A stretch of 64,000 bases of DNA from Aeromicrobium terrae (lineage in GTDB: Bacteria > Actinomycetota > Actinomycetes > Propionibacteriales > Nocardioidaceae). Positions within the stretch are counted from its first letter, which is position 1. The number at the start of each line of letters is the position of its first letter. This document shows positions 32,609 to 44,794 of the stretch, one piece after another. The DNA lies in NCBI RefSeq assembly GCF_008039565.1, contig NZ_VDUX01000002.1, positions 186,001 to 250,000 of the forward strand, written 5' to 3'. The translations under genes were made by a program, and so were the position numbers. The notes under the pieces were generated by a model, which saw only the letters and a program-made list of their open reading frames with translations, had not been told where the DNA came from and did not search any database.

Positions 32609-33439
32609 ATGGGCAGCCGCATGGTCCTGGCGACCCCGTTGAGGTCCTCCTTGGGACTCTCCGGCGAGCACGACGGCCTCGCCGTCGTCGATCTCCGCCA
32701 CCCTGACGCGGTCGAGTCCGTCCTCGGGCGCCTCCACGACGGCGGCGACGTCCCGATCGTCACCTGCGCGGCCGCCGACGAGGAAGCCGTCCGCCGGCTC
32801 ATCACCTTCACGCAGATCCGCTACCCCGGGTTCCGTGCCTGCCTCGAGCCGCTGCCCGGCACCCCGCTCGCCGTCGGCGTCGTCTCCTCCCTCGTCGACG
32901 ACCTGCACGGCGACGACGTCTTCGCCTGGCGCCTCGCCGCGCTCGACCTGCTGCGCGCGTCGCTGTGGTCCGCAGTGTGGCTGCCGAGCGTCACCGGCCT
33001 CTCGACGCCGACGCCGTCCCTGTTCCAGCACGTCCGTTCCTGGCTGCCCGGCTCGGGCTTCCTGGCGGTCGCCGCCCCGGAGCCGCGCGTCCTGCCCGCT
33101 CGCTCCGCCCCGGTCTCCGGCGTCGAGGCCCGGCCCGACTCCGCCCTGATCCACTCCCCGCTGACGCGGCCCACCTGGGTCGTCGACGCCGTCGCGAAGG
33201 CTGTGCAGCCACAGTCCGTCAGTGCCGTGGAGACCGTCCGTGAGCCGATCGACGTCTACGGCACCGAGGCCGCGGTCGAGCTGGTCGCCGTCCCGGTCTC
33301 CTTCGCGTCGGCCTCCCGGCCCGACTCGGCGGCCGTCGTCGCCTGTCCGGCGTGCGGCGTCCGCCACGCTCGGCCCACCTGCCCCGTCTGCAAGATGAGC
33401 GCCCAGCCCGGGCGCGCGACCCAAGGAGCTCGTCCGTGA
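32609..33439 (+). CDS. zinc-ribbon protein of unknown function heading the Tad operon
   Basis: 276 residues. I do not recognise the N-terminal 240 residues: a predicted alpha/beta region (VVDLRHPDAVESVLGRLHD; GVVSSLVDDLHGDDVFAWR) followed by a Pro/Ala/Ser-rich stretch. The C-terminus is a zinc ribbon CPAC-x8-CPVC (Cys246, 249, 258, 261). It is overlapped as GTGA by cpaB, so it is the first gene of the pilus operon. Candidate regulator, chaperone or scaffold; no function can be assigned from sequence. Confidence 0.7.
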   Translation: MGSRMVLATPLRSSLGLSGEHDGLAVVDLRHPDAVESVLGRLHDGGDVPIVTCAAADEEAVRRLITFTQIRYPGFRACLEPLPGTPLAVGVVSSLVDDLHGDDVFAWRLAALDLLRASLWSAVWLPSVTGLSTPTPSLFQHVRSWLPGSGFLAVAAPEPRVLPARSAPVSGVEARPDSALIHSPLTRPTWVVDAVAKAVQPQSVSAVETVREPIDVYGTEAAVELVAVPVSFASASRPDSAAVVACPACGVRHARPTCPVCKMSAQPGRATQGARP

Positions 33440-34158
33440 ACCCCCGTCAACGACGTGGCGTGATCTTCATGCTGCTCGCCGGCCTGACGGCCCTCATCCT
33501 GTTCTTCGTCGCGGTGAACTACGTCAGCTCGGTGAACGCCAAGGTGTCGCCCACCGTCACGGTCTACCAGGCGGCCAAGCAGATCGACGCGTACTCCGTC
33601 GTCGACGAGGGCGACCTCGAGGCCGTGAAGGTCCCCAAGAAGTGGACGTCGCCGGAGACCATCGACGAGAAGCGCACCCTCGTCGGCCGCCGGGTCAGCT
33701 TCAACGTCGCCAAGGGCACGTACCTCGGCACCGACATGCTCCTGCCGCCGTCGTCGCTGAACCGCGACGAGCGCGAGATCGCCCTGACCGTCGACGCCAA
33801 GACCGGCATCGCCGGCCGCGTGCGCTCCGGTGACTTCGTCGACGTGTACGCCGTGTTCGGCGAGGACGCCGGCCGCGGCGCGTCGCGGGTGCTCGTGCGC
33901 GGTGTCCGCGTGGTGTCGGTGCGCGGCATCGAGACCCGCAGTGAGACGTCGTCGCGCGACGAGCTCGAGCAGCAGCAGGTCATCCCGGTGACCCTGGCGC
34001 TCAAGCCCACGGCGGCCCTGGCCGTCACGTACGCCGACGCGTTCGCGAAGTCCGTCCGGCTCGTCGGCCTCCCGCCGGAGGCCAACGCCCAGAACCGCTC
34101 GTCGGAGCGCTCCTCCATCGACGCCGACGACCTGTCACTCCCGGGAGGTGGCGGCTGA
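33436..34158 (+). CDS. cpaB: Flp pilus assembly protein CpaB/RcpC (SAF domain)
   Basis: 240 residues. N-terminal membrane anchor (about 8-28), then an SAF-type domain (VYQAAKQIDAYSVVDEGDL) and the RcpC/CpaB region with the signature ALTVDAKTGIAGRVRSGDFV and DVYAVF. It supports the pilus channel outside the membrane. GTG 33436 has AAGGAG nine bases upstream and overlaps the previous stop; it shares one base with the next start. Confidence 0.87.
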   Translation: MNPRQRRGVIFMLLAGLTALILFFVAVNYVSSVNAKVSPTVTVYQAAKQIDAYSVVDEGDLEAVKVPKKWTSPETIDEKRTLVGRRVSFNVAKGTYLGTDMLLPPSSLNRDEREIALTVDAKTGIAGRVRSGDFVDVYAVFGEDAGRGASRVLVRGVRVVSVRGIETRSETSSRDELEQQQVIPVTLALKPTAALAVTYADAFAKSVRLVGLPPEANAQNRSSERSSIDADDLSLPGGGG

Positions 34159-35741
34159 TGTCGCACAGCGTCCTCATCGCAGCAGCCGAGCAGACCACCG
34201 GCTACGAGCTCCGCGCCCGGGTCGAGGAGCTCGAGGACTTCTTCGTCATCGACCTCGCCGACTCCACCGAGCGGCTGCACCGCCTGGTCGCGCAGCACGA
34301 CCCGGAGATCGTGCTCGTGCACGACGCCCTCGGGCCGGTCCCGGTGCTGCAGACCATCCGGGACGTCGTGGCCCGTCGTCCCGGCACCGCCATCGTGCTG
34401 GTCACCGACGACGTCTCCCCCGCGTCGTTCACCGCGGCCATCGACGCCGGCGCGCGCGCCGTCCTGCCCGACCCGATCACCCACGAGGAGCTCGAGCTGC
34501 GGCTCACCGCGGCCGCCGACTGGGTGGTCCAGATGCGGCGCCACCTCTCGGCCGAGGCGCTCGACCCCGAGCTCGGCTCGCGCGGCCGGCTCGTCAGCGT
34601 CGTCGGCGCCAAGGGCGGCGTCGGCACGTCCACGATCGCCGTCCACCTTGCGCACGACGCGGTCACCCGCGTGCCCGGGCGCAGCGTCTGCCTGCTCGAC
34701 CTGGACCTCGACCACGGCGACGTCTCCGACCTGCTCGGCATCACGCACCGCCTCGACGTCTCCGACCTGGCGAAGGTCGCCGACGACCTCACCGCCCAGA
34801 CGATCGGCTCGGCCATCCACCGCGGGCCCACCGGCCTGTCCACCCTCCTCGCGCCGCAGCGCATCGAGGACGTCGGCGAGGTGGGCGAGCGGGAGACGGT
34901 GCTGATCCTCGCTGCCGTCCGGCGCCAGTTCGACCTGGTGATCGTCGACTGCGGCGCCTCAGTGACGCCCGCGTCGGCCGCGGCCGTCGAGTCCGCGGAC
35001 GACGTCCTCCTGGTCACCACGCCGGACCTGCTGGCGCTGCGCGGCGCGCACCGCGTCGCCGAGCAGTGGAAGCGGGTCGGCGCCCGGTCGATCGAGACGG
35101 CGAAGATCGTGCTCAACCGGGTCAGCCGCGACAGCGACATCCAGCCCGACACCGCGGCGCGGCTGCTGCCGGCAGCGCCCCTGGAGGTCACGCTCCCCGA
35201 CGCGTTCAAGACGCTGCAGCGCGGGCTGAACCACCAGGACCCGGCCCAGATCCAGGCCAAGGCCTGGTGGAGCCGCATCGAGGACCTCGCCGCCGAGGTC
35301 GACACGGTCCCGCGCGAGCGCCGGTCGGAGTCGCGCGGGCGGCAGCGCAAGTCGCTGTTCCGTCAGCGCAAGGAGGCCGAGCCCACGACGGAGCCGGTCG
35401 CCGAGGAGGGCCAGGCCACGCTCGAGTTCGTCGGCACGATCTGGCTCGTCATCACCCTGATGGTCGTGATGTGGCAGGTCGCCCTGTGGGGCGTCTCGGC
35501 CGCGTTCACCAGCCACGCCGCCGACGAGGCCGCACGCGAGGCCGGCCTCGGCAGCAGCATCGAGAAGATCACGGACGAGGCCGAGAACTCGGTGCCGACG
35601 TGGTTCCGCAGCGACATGCACGTCACGCGCACGGCCAGCGGCACGGTGAAGGTCCGCAGTGAGCTGCCGATCCTCCTGCCGGCGGTCAGCGTCGACGGCC
35701 TGTCGTTCACCTCCGAGGTCGAGGTGGTGGAGGAACGGTGA
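34158..35741 (+). CDS. cpaE: CpaE/TadZ ATPase fused in frame to a TadE-like pseudopilin
   Basis: 527 residues in one uninterrupted frame. Residues 1-125: receiver-like domain without an obvious phospho-Asp. About 143-385: ParA/MinD-type ATPase with KGGVGTST (152-159), LLDLDLDHGD and VIVDCGAS; this part is a complete CpaE/TadZ, the pilus localisation factor. A basic linker follows (about 386-412). From 415 on, a TadE-like prepilin signal: EEG418/QATLE423 then a hydrophobic helix and an extracellular tail to 527. An AAGGAGG (35370-35376) lies eight bases before an in-frame ACG (35385), where a separate tadE would be expected to start. Confidence 0.85.
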   Translation: MSHSVLIAAAEQTTGYELRARVEELEDFFVIDLADSTERLHRLVAQHDPEIVLVHDALGPVPVLQTIRDVVARRPGTAIVLVTDDVSPASFTAAIDAGARAVLPDPITHEELELRLTAAADWVVQMRRHLSAEALDPELGSRGRLVSVVGAKGGVGTSTIAVHLAHDAVTRVPGRSVCLLDLDLDHGDVSDLLGITHRLDVSDLAKVADDLTAQTIGSAIHRGPTGLSTLLAPQRIEDVGEVGERETVLILAAVRRQFDLVIVDCGASVTPASAAAVESADDVLLVTTPDLLALRGAHRVAEQWKRVGARSIETAKIVLNRVSRDSDIQPDTAARLLPAAPLEVTLPDAFKTLQRGLNHQDPAQIQAKAWWSRIEDLAAEVDTVPRERRSESRGRQRKSLFRQRKEAEPTTEPVAEEGQATLEFVGTIWLVITLMVVMWQVALWGVSAAFTSHAADEAAREAGLGSSIEKITDEAENSVPTWFRSDMHVTRTASGTVKVRSELPILLPAVSVDGLSFTSEVEVVEER

Positions 35742-36100
35742 CTGCTCGGCAGGGGTGCCGGGCCCTGGGCGGCAAGAATGAGCAGGGCACGAGCACGCTC
35801 GAGGTCGCGGGCATGGCGCCGCTGGTGGCGCTGCTCGTCCTCATCCTGGTGCAGTCGGCGGTGACGCTCTACGCCGTCACCACCGCCCAGACCGCGGCCC
35901 GCCAGGGGGCGCGGGCGATGTCGCAGGGCGACGCCCCGTCCGGTGTCGTGCGCGGCTCCGTGCCCGACTGGATGGACGTCACCACGACCACGTTCGGGCC
36001 CGGCAGCGGCGTGAAGGTCGTCGTCGACGTCCCCGACCTCATCCCCGCCATGAACCTGACGATCACCCGCAAGGCGGTCATGCCAGGAGACAGCCCATGA
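35738..36100 (+). CDS. TadE/TadF-like minor pseudopilin
   Basis: 120 residues. Prepilin-type signal EQG/TSTLE followed by a hydrophobic segment VALLVLILVQSAVTLYAVTT, then a short extracellular domain. Such pseudopilins are processed by the Tad prepilin peptidase and support pilus assembly. GTG start overlaps the previous stop (GTGA) and its own stop overlaps the CpaF start (ATGA). Confidence 0.8.
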   Translation: MTARQGCRALGGKNEQGTSTLEVAGMAPLVALLVLILVQSAVTLYAVTTAQTAARQGARAMSQGDAPSGVVRGSVPDWMDVTTTTFGPGSGVKVVVDVPDLIPAMNLTITRKAVMPGDSP

Positions 36101-37449
36101 GACGCAACACCTTCGGCGCCGGATCGGTGCGCCAGAGCGACCCCGAGAGCCGCCCCGACAACGTCCTGGCCGAGGAGGCCGACGACGCTCTGGTGGCGGA
36201 CTTCCGCGAGAAGCTGCTCGACGAGATCGACCTGACCGAGCTGTCGAAGCTCGACCTGACCCAGCGACGCGCCCGTCTCGAGCGGGTGATGACCCACCTC
36301 GTCGCGAGCAAGGGACCGCTGCTCTCCAGCCGCGAGCGCACCGCCCTGATCCGCCGCGTCGTCGCGGAGGCGCTGGGTCTCGGCGTGCTCGAGCCCCTGC
36401 TCGCCGACGACGCCATCACCGAGATCATGGTCAACGGTCCGGACCAGATCTTCGTCGAGCGCAACGGCCAGGTGCAGCTCGCGAACGTCCGGTTCGTCAA
36501 CAACGAGCAGCTGCTGCAGACCATCGACCGCATCGTGTCGCAGGTCAACCGCCGCGTCGACGAGTCCAGCCCGATGGTCGACGCCCGTCTCCCCGAGCGC
36601 GGCGAGCGCGTCAACGTCATCCTCCCGCCGCTGTCCCTCGACGGGCCCGTGGTCACCATCCGCAAGTTCCCCCGCGCGTTCACGCTGGAGGAGCTGATCG
36701 GCAACGGCACGCTCGACGCCGACACTGCGCGGCTGCTCGGCGCCTGCGTCCGCGCGAAGCTGAACATCCTGGTGTCCGGCGGCACCGGCTCCGGCAAGAC
36801 GACGCTGCTGAACTCGCTGTCGGCGTTCATCCCCGACCGCGAGCGCATCGTCACCATCGAGGACGCCGCCGAGCTGTCGCTGCAGCAGAACCACGTCATC
36901 CGCCTGGAGTCCCGCCCACCGAACGTCGAGGGCAAGGGCCAGGTCACGATCCGCGACCTCGTTCGCAACTCGCTGCGCATGCGGCCTGACCGCATCGTCG
37001 TCGGCGAGGTCCGCGGCGGCGAGACGATGGACATGCTCTCGGCGATGAACACCGGTCACGAGGGGTCGCTGACGACGATCCACGCCAACAGCCCGATCGA
37101 GGCGCTCAGCCGCGCCGAGACGCTCGCGAGCATGAGCGACCTCGAGCTGCCGTTCGCCGCCGTGCAGGAGCAGGTGAACAACGCGATCGACATCATCGTG
37201 CAGCTCGACCGCGGGCCCACGGGCTCGCGCCGCGTCAGCGAAGCGGTGTACGTCGCGTCCAAGGGGCGCGAGCCGTACCGCCTGCAGCCGATCTCGGTGT
37301 TCGAGCTCGACGACTCCGTCGGCCCCAACGGTGAGCTGCACGGCCGGCACCGCATCCGCGCACTCCCCCTCGCCCTGGCCCGACGCCTCCGCCACACCGG
37401 CGAGGAGTTCGTCGTGAACCCCGAGGCGGCACCGGAGGAGTCCGCCTGA
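36097..37449 (+). CDS. tadA: Flp pilus assembly ATPase TadA/CpaF
   Basis: 450 residues, secretion ATPase of the GspE/VirB11 superfamily. Walker A GGTGSGKTT (about 228-236), Asp box IEDAAEL, VGEVRGGE Walker B and TIHANSP His box all present. It powers Flp pilus polymerisation at the inner face of the membrane, with TadB and TadC as platform. Overlaps its neighbours by 4 bp (ATGA) and 1 bp (TGATG). Confidence 0.93.
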   Translation: MRRNTFGAGSVRQSDPESRPDNVLAEEADDALVADFREKLLDEIDLTELSKLDLTQRRARLERVMTHLVASKGPLLSSRERTALIRRVVAEALGLGVLEPLLADDAITEIMVNGPDQIFVERNGQVQLANVRFVNNEQLLQTIDRIVSQVNRRVDESSPMVDARLPERGERVNVILPPLSLDGPVVTIRKFPRAFTLEELIGNGTLDADTARLLGACVRAKLNILVSGGTGSGKTTLLNSLSAFIPDRERIVTIEDAAELSLQQNHVIRLESRPPNVEGKGQVTIRDLVRNSLRMRPDRIVVGEVRGGETMDMLSAMNTGHEGSLTTIHANSPIEALSRAETLASMSDLELPFAAVQEQVNNAIDIIVQLDRGPTGSRRVSEAVYVASKGREPYRLQPISVFELDDSVGPNGELHGRHRIRALPLALARRLRHTGEEFVVNPEAAPEESA

Positions 37450-38369
37450 TGGCCCTGACCCTCCTGCTCGTCTGCGTCGTCCTCGCCCTGGTCATCTACG
37501 CGCTGTTCCAGTTCTGGACCGACCTCGGAGAGCAGGCGCAGGTGCTGCGGGCGGTCAACCCCGACCTGGTCGAGACGGCCGCGCTGCAGCGACGCACCCG
37601 GCTCGACCGGGCCGTCGTCCGCAGCCCGTGGGGGCCGCAGGTGCAGGACGCGCTCATGCTCACCGGGCTGTCCCTGTCCCCCAGCCGGTTCGTGATCGCG
37701 TGTGCCGTCATCTGCCTCACGATCGGGTTCGTCCTCGGCCTGATGCTGTCGTGGCTGCTCTTCCCGGTCGGCGCGTTCCTCGGCTTCCTGCTCATCCGGC
37801 AGTACGTCCGGCGTCAGCGCGAGCGGCGCAAGGAGGACTTCATCGCCCAGATGCCGGAGCTGGCGCGCACCCTCTCCAACGCGTCGTCGGCCGGCCTGTC
37901 CATCCGGACGTCCGTGGCCATGGCCGCCGACGAGCTGTCCGAGCCGGCCCGTACCGAGCTGCGCACCGTCTCCGAGGAGCTGAACCTCGGCGTCCCGCTC
38001 GACCAGGCGCTCTCGGACATGGAGCGCCGGCTGCCGTCGCGCGAGCTGGCGATCCTGGTGAGCTCGCTGATCGTCAGCGCCCGCTCCGGCGGCGCCCTCG
38101 TCAGTGCCCTCCGCGACATCTCCGACACCCTCGAGACCCGCAAGGAGGTGCGGCGCGAGATCCGCACCACCTACGCCCAGACCGTTGCCACCGCGTACGC
38201 GGTCCTGGGCGTCGGCACGCTGTCGCTGTTCCTGCTCGAGGGCCTGCACTCCGGCACCGTCGACGCGATGCTGCGCAACCCCATCGGCACGGCGTCAATC
38301 GTCTTCGCCGGGGCCGTCTACGCCGGGAGCATCTGGGCCATCCGCCGCATGACGAGGATCGACATCTGA
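37449..38369 (+). CDS. tadB: Flp pilus platform protein TadB
   Basis: 306 residues. N-terminal hydrophobic helix, two central transmembrane helices (about 77-110), a GspF-like cytoplasmic domain (QMPELARTLSNASSAGLSI...) and two C-terminal helices. Pairs with TadC to form the inner-membrane platform. Starts in a TGATG overlap with tadA and ends in one with tadC. Confidence 0.9.
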   Translation: MALTLLLVCVVLALVIYALFQFWTDLGEQAQVLRAVNPDLVETAALQRRTRLDRAVVRSPWGPQVQDALMLTGLSLSPSRFVIACAVICLTIGFVLGLMLSWLLFPVGAFLGFLLIRQYVRRQRERRKEDFIAQMPELARTLSNASSAGLSIRTSVAMAADELSEPARTELRTVSEELNLGVPLDQALSDMERRLPSRELAILVSSLIVSARSGGALVSALRDISDTLETRKEVRREIRTTYAQTVATAYAVLGVGTLSLFLLEGLHSGTVDAMLRNPIGTASIVFAGAVYAGSIWAIRRMTRIDI

Positions 38370-39262
38370 TGTTCCCCCTCGTCTTCGGCCTCGCCCTCAC
38401 CGGCTGCTTCGTGCTGTTCGTCGTCGGCTGGCGCATGGCCGGCGCCGACACCCTGGCCAACTGGGACGTCGCCGACATCATGCTGCTGCGCGACGAGAAC
38501 CGGCGGAAGCGTCGCGCCGGACCCGTCGACCGCCTGGCCCGACGGCTCGCCCCGCAGCTCTCGATCCTGCTCGGCCCTCGCATCCTGGCCAACATCCGGC
38601 GCCGCATCGACCTCGCCGGCCGGCCCGAGGGCATGACGGTCGAGTCGTTCCTGCAGCTGATCGTCAAGTACGGCCTGTTCCTCGGCACGGCTGCGTTCGC
38701 GTTCATCCTGCTCGGCAACTTCCTGTCGGCGATCATCGCGATCCTCGCCATCCCGGTGCTGCCGTTCACCCGGCTGTCCGGGCAGCAGCGCAAGCGGCGC
38801 ACCCAGATCGACGACGACCTCCCCGACTTCCTCGACGTCCTCGCGGTCACCGTCGGTGCGGGCATCGGCTTCCGGTCCGCGCTCGACCGCGTGTCGGCCC
38901 GGTTCACCGGCCCGCTGCGCGACGAGCTGAGCTTCACGCTGCACCAGCTCGACGTCGGCGTGCCGCGTCGTCAGGCCTTCACGAACCTGCGCGACCGCAG
39001 CGACTCCGAGGCGATGGGCTCGTTCGTCTCGGCGTTCCTGCAGGCCGAGGAGCTCGGTGCGCCACTGGCCGAGACGCTGTCCGGCATCGCCCAGGACAGC
39101 CGGCGCGAGGCGTCGCAGCGGGCCAGGCAGCGTGCGGCCCGCATGGTGCCGCGCGTGACGCTGCTCGTGTCCACGGTCATGGTGCCGCCGAGCATCATCA
39201 TGATCGTCGTCGGCCTCTACCTCGGCTCGGACGTCGACTTCGGGAGCCTCTTCAATGGATGA
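38369..39262 (+). CDS. tadC: Flp pilus platform protein TadC
   Basis: 297 residues, GspF-type membrane protein parallel to TadB. DDDLPDFLDVLAVTVGAGIGF and FLQAEELGAPLAETL are the expected T2SS-F segments; transmembrane helices lie near the N-terminus, at about 90-130 and at the C-terminus. Start ATG 38369 is fixed by the TGATG overlap with tadB. The histidine kinase gene begins 8 bp before its end. Confidence 0.9.
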   Translation: MFPLVFGLALTGCFVLFVVGWRMAGADTLANWDVADIMLLRDENRRKRRAGPVDRLARRLAPQLSILLGPRILANIRRRIDLAGRPEGMTVESFLQLIVKYGLFLGTAAFAFILLGNFLSAIIAILAIPVLPFTRLSGQQRKRRTQIDDDLPDFLDVLAVTVGAGIGFRSALDRVSARFTGPLRDELSFTLHQLDVGVPRRQAFTNLRDRSDSEAMGSFVSAFLQAEELGAPLAETLSGIAQDSRREASQRARQRAARMVPRVTLLVSTVMVPPSIIMIVVGLYLGSDVDFGSLFNG

Positions 39263-40406
39263 GCAGCCTCTCGTCGAGCGGATCGTCCGCTTCGCGTTCC
39301 TGATCCGGCTCGCCGCGCTGCTGCTCGTGGTCTTCGTCCCGAGCGAGATCAGCCGATCGCCCGTCGGCCTCACCGCGGTCGGATTCATCACGCTGACCAG
39401 CGCGTTCGGCCTCTACGTCACCTCGTCGTTCACGAGCAGCGTGTCCGCGCACCCGATCCTGCTGGTGCTCGACGTGCTGGTGGCGTCGGTGATCGGCGCC
39501 GTCGTCGGCCCGGACAGCCCGCTCATGCTCTACACGCTGAGCACGGCCGTGCTGATCGGCATCCTGCTCAGGCCGCGCACGGGGGTCATGGTGCTGGCCA
39601 TCCTGCTGTCGTCGTTCGCGCTCGTCGGCATCGCGCAGTCCGACCCGGCCCCGATCGCCACCCAGGTCCTGCTCCCGGTCTGCTGCGTGACCGTGTGCGC
39701 GCTCGGCACCATCACGCGGGTGCTGCACACGACGGCGATGCGCGAGGCCGCGGAGGTCCGGCGGCTGAGCGAGGACGCCGCCCGCGAGCGCGAGCGCGCC
39801 CGGCTGGCCCGCGACATGCACGACTCCGTCGCCAAGTCCCTGCACGGCATCGGCCTGGCCGCCGCGGCACTCCCCACCTGGGCCGAGACCGCGCCCGAGC
39901 TGCTGCCGGAACGGGCCCGTGAGCTCCAGCAGGCCGCCGAGGTGGCCTCGCAGGACGCCCGCGAGATCCTCGTCGACCTGCGCACCACCACCGACGACCG
40001 CACCCTCGCCCAGCAGCTGCGCGCCATGACCGACGACCTCGCCCAGGGCGGCGTCAAGGCCGAGCTGACCGTCGAGGGCATCGGCGACTGCGACCACGCC
40101 ATCAAGCGCGAGCTGGTCAGCATCGCCGGCGAGGCCGTCGAGAACGTCCGCCGGCACAGCGGCGCCCGCACCGTCGAGCTGAGCTGCGTCGGCACCGACG
40201 GCGAGATCGTCGTCCGCATCACCGACGACGGCCGCGGCTTCGAGCCCGGCCACACCCCCGACGGCCACTACGGCCTGGTGGGGATGCGCGAACGCGCGGA
40301 GGCGGTCGGCGGCCGCCTCGAGGTGACCTCGGCGCCAGGCCGCGGCACCACGGTCGAGGTGCACGCACCTCGCCAGTCAGCATCACTTCCGGGGGGAACA
40401 CGATGA
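39255..40406 (+). CDS. sensor histidine kinase, NarL-partner type
   Basis: 383 residues. Five or six transmembrane helices in residues 10-155, no large sensor domain, then HisKA_3 with RLARDMHDSVAKSLHGI (His189) and an HATPase_c domain (EAVENVRRHSG, DDGRGF, GLVGMRERAE). It would phosphorylate the response regulator 67 bp downstream. Being inside the Tad chain, overlapped by 8 bp with tadC, it very likely controls pilus genes. Signal unknown; the sensor is probably membrane-embedded. Confidence 0.88.
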   Translation: MDEQPLVERIVRFAFLIRLAALLLVVFVPSEISRSPVGLTAVGFITLTSAFGLYVTSSFTSSVSAHPILLVLDVLVASVIGAVVGPDSPLMLYTLSTAVLIGILLRPRTGVMVLAILLSSFALVGIAQSDPAPIATQVLLPVCCVTVCALGTITRVLHTTAMREAAEVRRLSEDAARERERARLARDMHDSVAKSLHGIGLAAAALPTWAETAPELLPERARELQQAAEVASQDAREILVDLRTTTDDRTLAQQLRAMTDDLAQGGVKAELTVEGIGDCDHAIKRELVSIAGEAVENVRRHSGARTVELSCVGTDGEIVVRITDDGRGFEPGHTPDGHYGLVGMRERAEAVGGRLEVTSAPGRGTTVEVHAPRQSASLPGGTR

Positions 40407-40477
40407 GCACCCCACGGCGTTCTTCGCCTCCCCCGCTTCGCTCCGCCGTCGAACAACACCGAGGGGACCCCGCATGA
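40403..40477 (+). CDS. 24-codon micro-ORF bridging kinase and regulator
   Basis: ATG 40403 overlaps the kinase stop as ATGA, and its TGA (40475-40477) overlaps the regulator start as ATGA, so it is exactly fitted between the two. SD-like GGGGGGAA precedes it, and GAGGGG inside it serves the regulator. The peptide begins MSTPRRSSPPPL and is Pro/Arg/Ser-rich. It may be a translation-coupling device, a stalling leader (three consecutive Pro codons) or a real small protein. Too short for normal gene finders. Confidence 0.5.
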   Translation: MSTPRRSSPPPLRSAVEQHRGDPA

Positions 40478-41121
40478 CCGATCCGATCCGCGTGCTGGTG
40501 GTCGACGACAACGCCGTCGTCCGCATGGGCCTGCGCAACCTCCTCGACGCCCGCGAGGAGATCGAGGTGGTCGGCGAGGCCGACAACGGCGAGGACGCCG
40601 TGAAGGAGAACCTCCGGCTCGAGCCCGACGTCGTGCTGTGCGACGTGCGGATGCCCGGTCTCGACGGCGTCGGCGCTGCCACCCAGATGTCGCCCACCAC
40701 CAACGTCCTGATGCTCACCTACTCCGACGACCTCGACGTCATCCGCGGCGCGATGGCCGCCGGCGCCAAGGGCTACCTCGTGCACGGGGCGCACCAGCCT
40801 GACGAGATCGTCGCCGCCGTCGTCAGCGCGTCGCGGGGCTCGTCGGTGCTCGGCCCGGCGGCGGCGAAGGCGTTGCTGACCGATCCCGCGCCGGCCCCGT
40901 CGGTCGACCGCTCCCGCTGGGGACTGACGGCCCGCGAGGGCGAGGTGATGGAGAAGGTGGCCCTCGGCCTCACGAACCGCGAGATCGCGAAGGCCTGCTT
41001 CCTGGCCGAGAAGACGGTCAAGAACCACCTCAACAACATCTTCCCGAAGCTCGGCGTCACCACCCGGGCCGAGGCGGTCAGCGTGTGGCTCGGCGCCGCC
41101 AGACCCACTGAGAACGCCTGA
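40474..41121 (+). CDS. NarL/LuxR-family response regulator
   Basis: 215 residues. Receiver domain with DDN (11-13), phospho-acceptor Asp57 (VLCDVRMPG), and a C-terminal LuxR-type helix-turn-helix (LTAREGEVMEKVALGLTNREIAKACFLAEKTVKNHL). Partner of the upstream kinase. The palindrome shared by the promoters of the two prepilin genes (41139 and 43419) is a natural candidate for its binding site (inference). Confidence 0.9.
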   Translation: MTDPIRVLVVDDNAVVRMGLRNLLDAREEIEVVGEADNGEDAVKENLRLEPDVVLCDVRMPGLDGVGAATQMSPTTNVLMLTYSDDLDVIRGAMAAGAKGYLVHGAHQPDEIVAAVVSASRGSSVLGPAAAKALLTDPAPAPSVDRSRWGLTAREGEVMEKVALGLTNREIAKACFLAEKTVKNHLNNIFPKLGVTTRAEAVSVWLGAARPTENA

Positions 41122-41182: not shown

Positions 41183-41237
41183 CGTGGTCATCAAGGACCT
41201 CCCGAAACACCAGAAGCTCACCAACAAAGGGGAAACC

Positions 41238-41447
41238 ATGTACGACCAGGCTCTGAAGCTCTACAGCACGATGATCGCCCTCACCGTCGCACCGAAGGAC
41301 GAGAAGGGCCAGGGCACGCTCGAGTACCTCGGCATCGTCATCATCGCCGCGCTGCTCGTCACCGCCATCGTCGGTGCGGTCAAGGGCGTCGACATCGCCA
41401 AGGTGGTCACCGACCAGATCAAGAAGATCACGGACCTCGGCGGCTGA
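41238..41447 (+). CDS. flp: Flp-type major pilin
   Basis: 69 residues. Prepilin signal KG24/QGTLEY with Glu at +5 and Tyr at +6, then a hydrophobic helix LGIVIIAALLVTAIVGAVKGV, as in Flp/Fap pilins. The long leader of 24 residues lacks a strong signal sequence, as usual. SD AAAGGGG lies seven bases before ATG 41238, which I prefer over GTG 41184. Own promoter upstream; the stop overlaps the next gene. Confidence 0.88.
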   Translation: MYDQALKLYSTMIALTVAPKDEKGQGTLEYLGIVIIAALLVTAIVGAVKGVDIAKVVTDQIKKITDLGG

Positions 41448-42079
41448 TGAAGCTCCGTCCCACTCAGCAGGGAGATCGCGGCGCCGCCGCGGTCTCCCTG
41501 CTGACGGTCGGGATCATCATCTCCCTCGCGATCATCGCGGTGATGGCGATCCCGCTCACCCAGGCGTCGGACGCGAAGGCGAAGAGCCGGTCCGCCGCCG
41601 ACGCCGCCGCCCTCGCCGGCGCCGACCACGTCCGCCTCGAGCTCAAGGAGCAGCTGTCCCTCAAGGGCTGGCTCGGCGGCTGGGGCAACCTGCCGATCTT
41701 CGACGGCGGTCTTGCCGCCGCGCGAACGTACGCCGAGCGGAACGACGCCACCCTCGTGGCCTACCAGCGGCCGTCGTTCGACAACGGCTTCACCGCCTAC
41801 GCCCGCGTGGAGGGCCGCACCGTCAAGGGCGAGGTCACCCGCAGCGAGGCGTGGGCGAAGCTCTCGCTCCCGGACTGCCAGAAGAAGGACGACCCGGAAC
41901 CCACCGAGCCGCCCCCGGACGACGACGAGGACGACGACGACGAGGACGAGCCGCCGCCCCCGCAGGGCTGGGAGTGTGCCGGCATCGAGTTCGACGTCCC
42001 GGTCGAGGGCCCGCCGCACCTGAGCGTCGACATCATCGACGCCCTGTTCAACGACTCCAACGCGAAGCTGGTCGACTAG
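41447..42079 (+). CDS. TadG/TadE-like pilus protein with acidic stretch
   Basis: 210 residues. N-terminal QQGDRGAAAVSLLTVGIIISLAIIA resembles the Flp pilus TadG/Rv3660c-like N-terminus (DRGAAAV), one transmembrane segment, then an extracellular domain with a Pro/Asp/Glu-rich stretch (about 146-172, a long DDDED run) and one cysteine pair (about 144 and 176). Overlaps flp by one base (TGATG). Probably envelope-facing and part of the pilus; exact role unknown. Confidence 0.72.
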   Translation: MKLRPTQQGDRGAAAVSLLTVGIIISLAIIAVMAIPLTQASDAKAKSRSAADAAALAGADHVRLELKEQLSLKGWLGGWGNLPIFDGGLAAARTYAERNDATLVAYQRPSFDNGFTAYARVEGRTVKGEVTRSEAWAKLSLPDCQKKDDPEPTEPPPDDDEDDDDEDEPPPPQGWECAGIEFDVPVEGPPHLSVDIIDALFNDSNAKLVD

Positions 42080-43418: not shown

Positions 43419-43462
43419 GGGCCGTCAGGCCCATGCGTCCGGTCGACCGGGCGCCCTACCGT
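43419..43462 (+). promoter_or_regulatory. promoter of the large prepilin gene, twin of the flp promoter
   Basis: GGGCC GTCA GGCCC (43419-43432), then CATG, then a -10 box TACCGT (43457-43462), with the palindrome-to-box distance again 24 bp. CCGGGC and CCTA lie at the same places as in the flp promoter. It begins just after the lipoprotein stop. Confidence 0.65.
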
Positions 43463-43498
43463 CACAGCACCACGCAAGACACAGACCAGGGGAAACGC

Positions 43499-44794
43499 AT
43501 GTTCATCGGGGGAAAGCCGCGCAGTGAACGCGGTCAGGGCTCGCTGGAGTCCGTCGGGATCGTCGTGCTCGCGGCGATCCTGGCGACGTCGATCGTCGGC
43601 GTCGTCGTGCAGGCCAGTCCGAACCTGCGCGACAACGTCGCCTACCAGCTGTGCCGGATCGTCCACGTCGTCGACGGCGGCGGCTGCGACAAGCCGGGCG
43701 ACCTCCGCACCGCCGACGAGCGTGTCCCCGACGAGCCGTGCGTGTCCGGCTCGCAGAGCATCTCCGCCGAGGCGTCCGCATCGGTCGTCGTCACGGTGAA
43801 GCGCGGCTACTCGTTCCTGATCGAGCGGATGTCCGACGGCACGTACAAGGTCACCCGCGTCGACACCCTCGGCGTCGGCACCGGCGTCGGGCCGGGCATC
43901 GACATCAGCCTCACCCTGGACGGCAAGAAGTACGGCGTCACGGCCATCGCCTCGGCCGACGCCATGCTCGCGGGGAAGATGGGCGAGACCTGGTACGCCG
44001 ACAGCGAGGACGGCGCCAACGACATCATCAAGGACGTCATCGCGAACGACGTCGTCGACGAGGTGGTCCCCGATGCCGGCGTCGGACCGTTCAAGGCTCC
44101 GAACCCGGTGAAGTGGGCGATCAAGAAGCTCATCGGCGAGCCGGGCGACCCGGACGAGGAGTACGCCGAGGGCGGCATCGAGGGCAGCGCCGAGGCCACC
44201 GTCTCCGGCATCACCGCCGGCGCAGGTGCCAACGTGAAGGCCGAGAACTACCTGGGCGGCAAGAAGACGCCGGACGGCTACACCGCCTACTTCCGGGCGG
44301 GCATCTCCGGCAGCGCCTGGGCGAACGTCCTCAACGCCGAGGGCACCAACTACGACGGCGCGTCCGCGATGGCCGGCGGCGAGATGCTCGCCGAGCTGAA
44401 CTTCGACAAGAGCGGCAAGCCGACGTCCATCAAGATGACCACCACGGTCACCCTGGACGCGGCCACCCAGGACGGCGTCGCCGAGACCGACGACCAGAAG
44501 GTCACCGAGTACTCCTTCGAGGTCCCGCTCACCGGCGACCCCGTCCACGACGCCCCGCTGTACGCCGCGCTCGCCAGCCCGGTCGCCCTGCCCGGGTTCA
44601 TCGACGAGGCGCGCAAGAACGGCTACGCCACCCAGAACGTCTACTCGCAGGACCCGAACACCTACGGCCTGAACGTCGGCGGCGAGCTGCTCGGCGAGTA
44701 CGGCGGGTCGATCTCCGGCGACGTCACCAACAAGGACCTCCAGGAGGCCCTGTACTGGGACGGCGAGAAGATGGCCCCCCGCCCGGACTGCTGA
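43499..44794 (+). CDS. Flp-type prepilin signal joined to a large extracellular domain
   Basis: 431 residues. The first 40 residues are a Flp-like leader and helix: ERG12/QGSLE17 then SVGIVVLAAILATSIVGVVV. The remaining 390 are extracellular: a Cys-containing N-terminal part (four Cys within about 48-90), then an Ala/Gly/Asp-rich region with repeats of the type EGSAEATVSG / GISGSAWANV and a terminal Cys. A pilus-incorporated adhesin or tip-type subunit is a reasonable guess. ATG 43499 follows AGGGGAAACGC and its 5' end resembles that of flp. Confidence 0.78.
   Translation: MFIGGKPRSERGQGSLESVGIVVLAAILATSIVGVVVQASPNLRDNVAYQLCRIVHVVDGGGCDKPGDLRTADERVPDEPCVSGSQSISAEASASVVVTVKRGYSFLIERMSDGTYKVTRVDTLGVGTGVGPGIDISLTLDGKKYGVTAIASADAMLAGKMGETWYADSEDGANDIIKDVIANDVVDEVVPDAGVGPFKAPNPVKWAIKKLIGEPGDPDEEYAEGGIEGSAEATVSGITAGAGANVKAENYLGGKKTPDGYTAYFRAGISGSAWANVLNAEGTNYDGASAMAGGEMLAELNFDKSGKPTSIKMTTTVTLDAATQDGVAETDDQKVTEYSFEVPLTGDPVHDAPLYAALASPVALPGFIDEARKNGYATQNVYSQDPNTYGLNVGGELLGEYGGSISGDVTNKDLQEALYWDGEKMAPRPDC

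Follow-up and report, generated by a model that had tools for sequence, protein, structure and literature searches.

The cytoplasmic positioning ATPase CpaE of Caulobacter, and its counterpart TadZ of A. actinomycetemcomitans, are encoded in tad operons and consist of a REC-like domain and a MinD/ParA-type ATPase with an atypical P-loop (PMC13170226, PMC6668835). The ATPase and the tad context, together with a probable REC-like domain, recur in the first part of a gene of Aeromicrobium terrae that we analysed within a 64,000-nucleotide stretch of contig NZ_VDUX01000002.1 (hereafter the window). CpaE/TadZ is a separate protein in Caulobacter and A. actinomycetemcomitans, whereas the C-terminus of the protein in the window runs on into a minor prepilin. 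With the TadE/TadF minor pilins (CpaJ/CpaK) the fusion shares the G/xxxxE site, a single N-terminal hydrophobic helix and a small C-terminal domain, but the leader of TadE/TadF is a short peptide and that of the fusion is an enzyme-like chain of 418 residues. A Caulobacter model from tomography and predicted structures has CpaF at the inner membrane encircled by six CpaE dimers, with the minor pilins sitting on the platform (PMC13170226). A review of monoderm pili left open what keeps the Tad assembly complex together and whether TadZ/TadG does so (PMC6916266).

Other joined or extended pilus proteins have been described. In the type IVa pili of Clostridioides difficile, PilM and PilN are naturally joined, and this has been taken as support for their interaction (PMC6916266). 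That fusion belongs to a different pilus class than the Tad fusion of the window. PilN, moreover, is not known to be a pilin. A gene fusion in an actinobacterial Tad locus is also known from the tad-2 cluster of Micrococcus luteus, where TadB is joined to TadC (PMC4322843), but it combines two platform proteins and not an ATPase with a pilin. Lastly, some prepilins of T4bP and of Streptococcus sanguinis have, like the fusion, a leader that is longer than usual (PMC10191384). The joined cpaE-tadE gene belongs to a known system, the Tad/type IVc pilus. The long leaders of T4bP and Streptococcus sanguinis are peptides and are not known to comprise a whole domain. No description of a CpaE/TadZ-TadE fusion was found in searches of open-access literature, including the accessible text of PMC2947987, PMC6916266, PMC7332563, PMC10499894, PMC6668835, PMC3244431, PMC4322843, PMC11300603, PMC13170226, PMC10191384, PMC3666418 and PMC9531140, although subscription papers, preprints or domain-architecture databases may list it.

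The joined gene and its locus

The original prediction described an uninterrupted frame of 527 codons, and this was recovered as an open reading frame with an ATG start (Table 1). The ATG overlaps the stop codon of the upstream cpaB in the string TGATG, with GGGAGG at 34143-34148, and the stop codon of the fused gene shares bases with the GTG at which the next gene starts. The assignment of the first 385 residues or so to a CpaE-type ATPase also held. Pfam AAA_31 matched residues 144-310 of the fusion with 39.7 bits (cut-off 27), CbiA and ParA likewise exceeded their cut-offs in this part, and the closest solved structures are ParA/MinD relatives (best 3ea0_A, E 4.8e-19). Response_reg matched residues 18-115 with 27.7 bits, just below the cut-off of 30.2, and was matched at E<=0.01 by 42 of the 48 aligned fused proteins. 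A REC-like domain and an ATPase would make up the architecture of CpaE/TadZ, and alignment of the 48 fused proteins shows that K152, G153, G154 and G156 of the deviant Walker A motif are invariant. The NCBIfam model TIGR03815 (CpaE_hom_Actino, i.e. Ssd) gave 50.1 bits, which is below its curated cut-off of 154.45.

The TadE-like prepilin end, with its site G418/QATLE, had been placed correctly as well. When the C-terminal 142 amino acids were searched, the Pfam TadE profile matched over its full length from G418 onwards, with a score of 19.6 bits that is below the cut-off of 22.9; in a genome-wide search the same part scored 21.6 bits. The profile was matched at E<=0.01 by 34/48 fused proteins. 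Since two fused relatives do exceed the TadE cut-off (L008, 33.0 bits; L010, 29.5 bits), we name the C-terminal part TadE-type.

Table 1. Features of the fused gene and the surrounding tad locus (positions in the window)
Feature	Position	Strand	Description
cpaB/rcpC	33436..34158	+	Pfam RcpC and SAF, TIGR03177; start approximate, chosen by eye
Fused cpaE-tadE gene	34158..35741	+	One open frame, ATG start, 527 aa, 57.0 kDa predicted
CpaE/TadZ-type part, residues 1-385 (about)	34158..35312	+	Putative REC-like domain and MinD/ParA-type ATPase, KGGVGTST loop
Linker, residues 386-417	35313..35408	+	No in-frame ATG, GTG or TTG
SD-like AAGGAGG and in-frame ACG	35370-35376; 35385-35387	+	Judged not a start site
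Putative prepilin peptidase site G418/Q419 A T L E423	35409..35426	+	Class III signal: G-1, E+5, then hydrophobic segment
TadE-type minor pilin, predicted mature part, residues 419-527	35412..35738	+	Pfam TadE; 11.8 kDa predicted
Second TadE-like minor pilin (tadE2)	35738..36100	+	GTG start overlaps stop of fusion; Pfam TadE 29.1 bits, cut-off 22.9
tadA/cpaF motor ATPase	36097..37449	+	Pfam T2SSE 228.3 bits
tadB	37449..38369	+	Pfam T2SSF 70.4 bits
tadC	38369..39262	+	Pfam T2SSF 73 bits, DUF5936
Histidine kinase within tad locus	39255..40406	+	Pfam HisKA_3, HATPase_c
LuxR-type response regulator within tad locus	40474..41121	+	Pfam Response_reg, GerE
Flp-type major pilin	41184..41447	+	G/QGTLEY site; identity inferred from motif and place in locus
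TadG-like protein	41447..42079	+	Pfam Tad PF13400 22.4 bits, cut-off 22.3

The locus has the order cpaB, [cpaE-tadE], tadE2, tadA, tadB, tadC, histidine kinase, response regulator, flp, tadG, of which the flp reading frame had no match in Pfam or NCBIfam. A histidine kinase and a LuxR-type regulator follow tadC in 15 of 19 relatives and were not found there in L059, L089, L090 and L100; the pair therefore seems to be part of this type of tad locus. Further downstream, at 43433-44794, lies a reading frame of 453 amino acids (true start perhaps Met23) that begins like a Flp prepilin (SERGQGSLESVGIVVLAAILA) and gave a tblastn match to Flp, and of which the roughly 380 residues after the Flp-like start had no Pfam match at E<=0.01. 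Lying close to the tad locus, it would encode a large, modular pilin of the Flp type, perhaps an adhesin.

The genome of the window encodes five TadA-like ATPases above the Pfam cut-off, two of which adjoin separate cpaE genes. These ordinary cpaE genes form reading frames of their own of 424 and 404 amino acids. A separate orthologue of the fused TadE was sought elsewhere in the genome and rejected: there are seven Pfam TadE matches, including the fusion and its neighbour at 35738-36100. When a profile built from the fused TadE was used, the neighbour reached 48 bits and, among the other five, only L038 matched it, with 23 bits.

Distribution and history of the fusion

Alignment with related Tad loci had been suggested as a check on whether the two parts are separate genes elsewhere, and both arrangements were found. 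Searches with profiles of both parts classified 89 distinct loci as fused (43, window included), split into two genes (43) or undetermined (three). Eight more loci, from other classes within the phylum, bring the total to 51 distinct fused loci, window included, and the fused frame recurs down to 32% identity. The seven strongest matches among 148 genomes, the window and its genome included, all have one open frame over both parts. An even sample of 197 genomes from the class contained 27 with a match, of which 11 were fused and 16 split. Among 396 genomes drawn from the phylum 26 had a match, and all eight strong matches that were classified outside the class were fused; of the nine genomes with strong matches there, G406 was left unclassified, as were two further matches of G592 and five weak CpaE-only matches. 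The search was deep within the phylum, and a two-pattern scan of named genomes (63 loci) was the only route to other phyla; the titled loci it returned were actinobacterial. No plasmid-borne relative was found at E<=1e-20 in a plasmid collection. Before counting, L055 and L087 (contig ends before TadE) and L103 (CpaE broken between two frames) were dropped and the duplicates L114, L126, L127 and L128 removed; L001, L044 and L110, which are the window again, and L011 and L012, whose match is the same as that of L045 and L077, were not counted.

Fused loci occur in Aeromicrobium, Nocardioides caldifontis, Microlunatus, Desertihabitans, Cellulomonas, Oerskovia, Xylanimonas and Georgenia, and also in four named Nocardiopsis and three named Streptomyces. 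Within the Streptomyces-group clade 15 rows are split and six fused, the 23 rows of the Nocardiopsidaceae clade are all split, and so are the four of Actinomadura/Spirillospora. The subfamily is patchy: within the genus of the window a strong full-length match was present in 4/49 genomes, the window's own among them. This could fit a decayed or chimeric gene without function. However, cpaB, cpaE, tadA, tadB and tadC have kept their order in all 19 relatives compared, 17 of them fused, and both the P-loop and the processing residues are conserved, so that loss of function seems extremely improbable; a chimera made in assembly was rejected on the strength of the 51 distinct fused loci.

A tree of 86 CpaE parts requires six changes between the fused and the split state, against 28.8 when the labels are shuffled, and at least three of the six are forced by well-supported branches. 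The eight loci of other classes were then added, and 21 ordinary CpaE sequences served as outgroup to root the tree. The number of changes was still six, and the window's clade contained nothing but fused loci, as did the group to which the other classes belong; the rooting used a quick method and came with long-branch warnings. Since every group with split loci includes fused ones as well, one old fusion is favoured and the simplest reading is that several splits followed it, with gain and loss not securely told apart by a quick rooting with long branches. Because the state changed repeatedly, the covalent link appears to be dispensable. It may nevertheless help, and is probably not essential, since homologues keep the locus with two separate genes.

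The linker and the start of TadE

In the window the TadE part has neither a start codon of its own nor a short leader. One alternative is that TadE is made mainly by internal initiation, for example at ACG 35385 or CTG 35355, or that its start codon was lost by sequencing error, in which case the fused frame would be incidental. The string AAGGAGG does lie eight bases before the in-frame ACG, as the original prediction had pointed out, and open frames come cheaply in GC-rich DNA, where stop codons are rare. This string, proposed as the mark of a tadE start, does not appear to have that role: read in frame it is AAG GAG G, part of Lys-Glu-Ala, and it is absent from the four nearest relatives. 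The window has no in-frame ATG, GTG or TTG between codon 318 and codon 435, and the four nearest relatives, which are all fused, have none in the stretch that separates the CpaE profile from the TadE profile. Each of the four does carry start-like codons at residues 380-389, where the CpaE part ends just before the linker, and in L010 the ATG at residue 383 is preceded by GAGGT.

In a wider comparison, these three codons are absent between the profile ends in 22/43 fused loci and an in-frame one is present in the other 21; it follows an SD match of at least four bases in seven of the 43 and one of five bases in three. Counted from residue 386 to the site, the stretch is free of them in 27 of 48 aligned fused proteins (21/40 of those counted among the 43). 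Upstream of TadE, an in-frame start was found in 41 of the 43 split loci, and in 29 with an SD match of at least four bases, in a scan of up to 80 codons that is longer than most fused linkers. This indicates that a start in use tends to be retained. Internal initiation is possible in some loci, since 21/43 linkers and the CpaE ends of the nearest relatives hold start-like codons.

The lengths of the linkers point in the same direction as the missing starts. The window belongs to an all-fused clade of 24 rows with 100/100 support, in which the distance from L353 to G418 takes 16 values and changed at least 21 times on the tree. The length between the profile ends takes 18 values there, again with at least 21 changes; profile ends shift by a few residues while L353 and G418 are invariant, and both measures give the same minimum. 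All of these changes kept the frame, for which the chance would be about (1/3)^21, or 1e-10, if insertions and deletions ignored it. A comparison of fused genes in 11 pairs gave 137, 125 and 198 linker differences at the first, second and third codon position, an excess at the third position that is partly built in because the codons were aligned through the protein. Codon differences in the linker are nonsynonymous in 198 cases and synonymous in 86, as expected of a loose linker. The linker frame thus appears to be under selection, with a coding signal inflated by the protein-guided alignment. Given these observations we consider it improbable that TadE arises mainly from a start of its own, and a start codon lost in the window, the rival that accompanied the original prediction, is very unlikely. 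The linkers of L089, L090, L100 and L129, which belong to the Streptomyces group, extend over 87-267 residues and are still in one frame; in L090 and L100 the linker has a high content of Pro, Gly and Ala.

Probable processing of the fused chain and its possible role

According to PMC10191384, the last residue of a prepilin leader is always Gly or Ala, and position +5 is often Glu. The fused loci have Gly at -1 in 43/43 cases, as located by a motif that demands Gly and that none of them failed, together with Glu at +5 in 42 and Asp in one. Position -3 is acidic in 42/43, and most surrounding positions are variable. An alignment made without the site motif, covering 48 of the 51 fused loci (A2; L089, L090 and L100 with linkers of more than 90 residues left out), has 16 invariant columns, 15 in the CpaE part and one at G418. 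The 26 residues up to the Gly carry a net positive charge in 35/43 fused loci and are not positive in eight. Residues +6 to +26 have a mean hydropathy of 1.8-2.7, and no 21-residue stretch upstream exceeds 1.67. Charge and hydropathy together suggest one membrane segment with the CpaE side in the cytoplasm. The genome encodes one Peptidase_A24 protein above the cut-off, with a GYGD motif. The site motif is also present in 37/43 split loci, where CpaE ends in a tail of 15-85 amino acids past its profile and so resembles the product expected from cleavage. L084, L093, L099 and L104 of Actinomadura/Spirillospora have a separate TadE with the Glu closer to the Gly than +5.

It could also be that the chain stays largely uncut and that the TadE helix anchors CpaE permanently, replacing the amphipathic helix probably used elsewhere. 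In Caulobacter CpaE likely reaches the membrane by a C-terminal amphipathic helix (PMC13170226), and the TadE helix at that place would be a natural anchor. The linkers are short, 7-25 residues between the profiles, in the eight fused loci outside the class, which would suit such an anchor. A mere anchor would not need Gly at -1, yet it is present in all 43 loci and all 48 aligned proteins, and we count this residue as an argument for cleavage. A permanent 1:1 ratio would moreover be awkward for a machine with a dozen CpaE and presumably few minor pilins, and sister lineages manage without the link. It therefore seems unlikely that the chain remains uncut, if somewhat less so than that TadE has a start of its own.

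We consider it likely that the prepilin peptidase cuts the fused chain at G418. The original prediction that the chain is made as one and then processed is borne out strongly for the fusion by the comparative data, and for the processing the Gly at -1, the Glu at +5, the mostly basic linker, the single hydrophobic segment and the peptidase gene agree with it at the level of sequence. With good confidence we thus regard the gene as a genuine and long-conserved cpaE-tadE fusion of one actinobacterial Tad (type IVc) subfamily, made as one chain that is probably cut after G418. A single chain would be translated from the fused frame, the hydrophobic segment of TadE would insert in the normal prepilin orientation, and the CpaE part with the linker would stay in the cytoplasm. 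Cleavage after G418 by the aspartyl prepilin peptidase would then give a 45 kDa CpaE that ends in a short basic tail, and a mature TadE of 12 kDa ready to prime the pilus. These products would match those of sister lineages with two separate genes.

From the fusion we propose that CpaE and TadE are supplied at 1:1 and that CpaE is delivered where the minor pilin inserts; placing CpaE at the pilus base in this manner, as the original prediction had suggested, is a hypothesis. More tentatively, and with more doubt than confidence, the peptidase might also mature CpaE, which would arrive at the membrane as the N-terminal portion of a minor prepilin, with the cut at the invariant Gly freeing the ATPase for its ring and licensing TadE for priming. 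If true, assembly of the machine and priming of the filament would be coupled by one proteolytic event.

In many actinobacteria one gene thus probably gives rise to two matched pilus parts. That the fusion occurs naturally in more than one class of the phylum points to joint action of CpaE and TadE in similar numbers. The fusion also predicts that prepilin peptidase can release a cytoplasmic protein of 45 kDa as a 'leader'. Both ideas, joint action and leader release, could be tested in the related lineages that have the genes fused and split.
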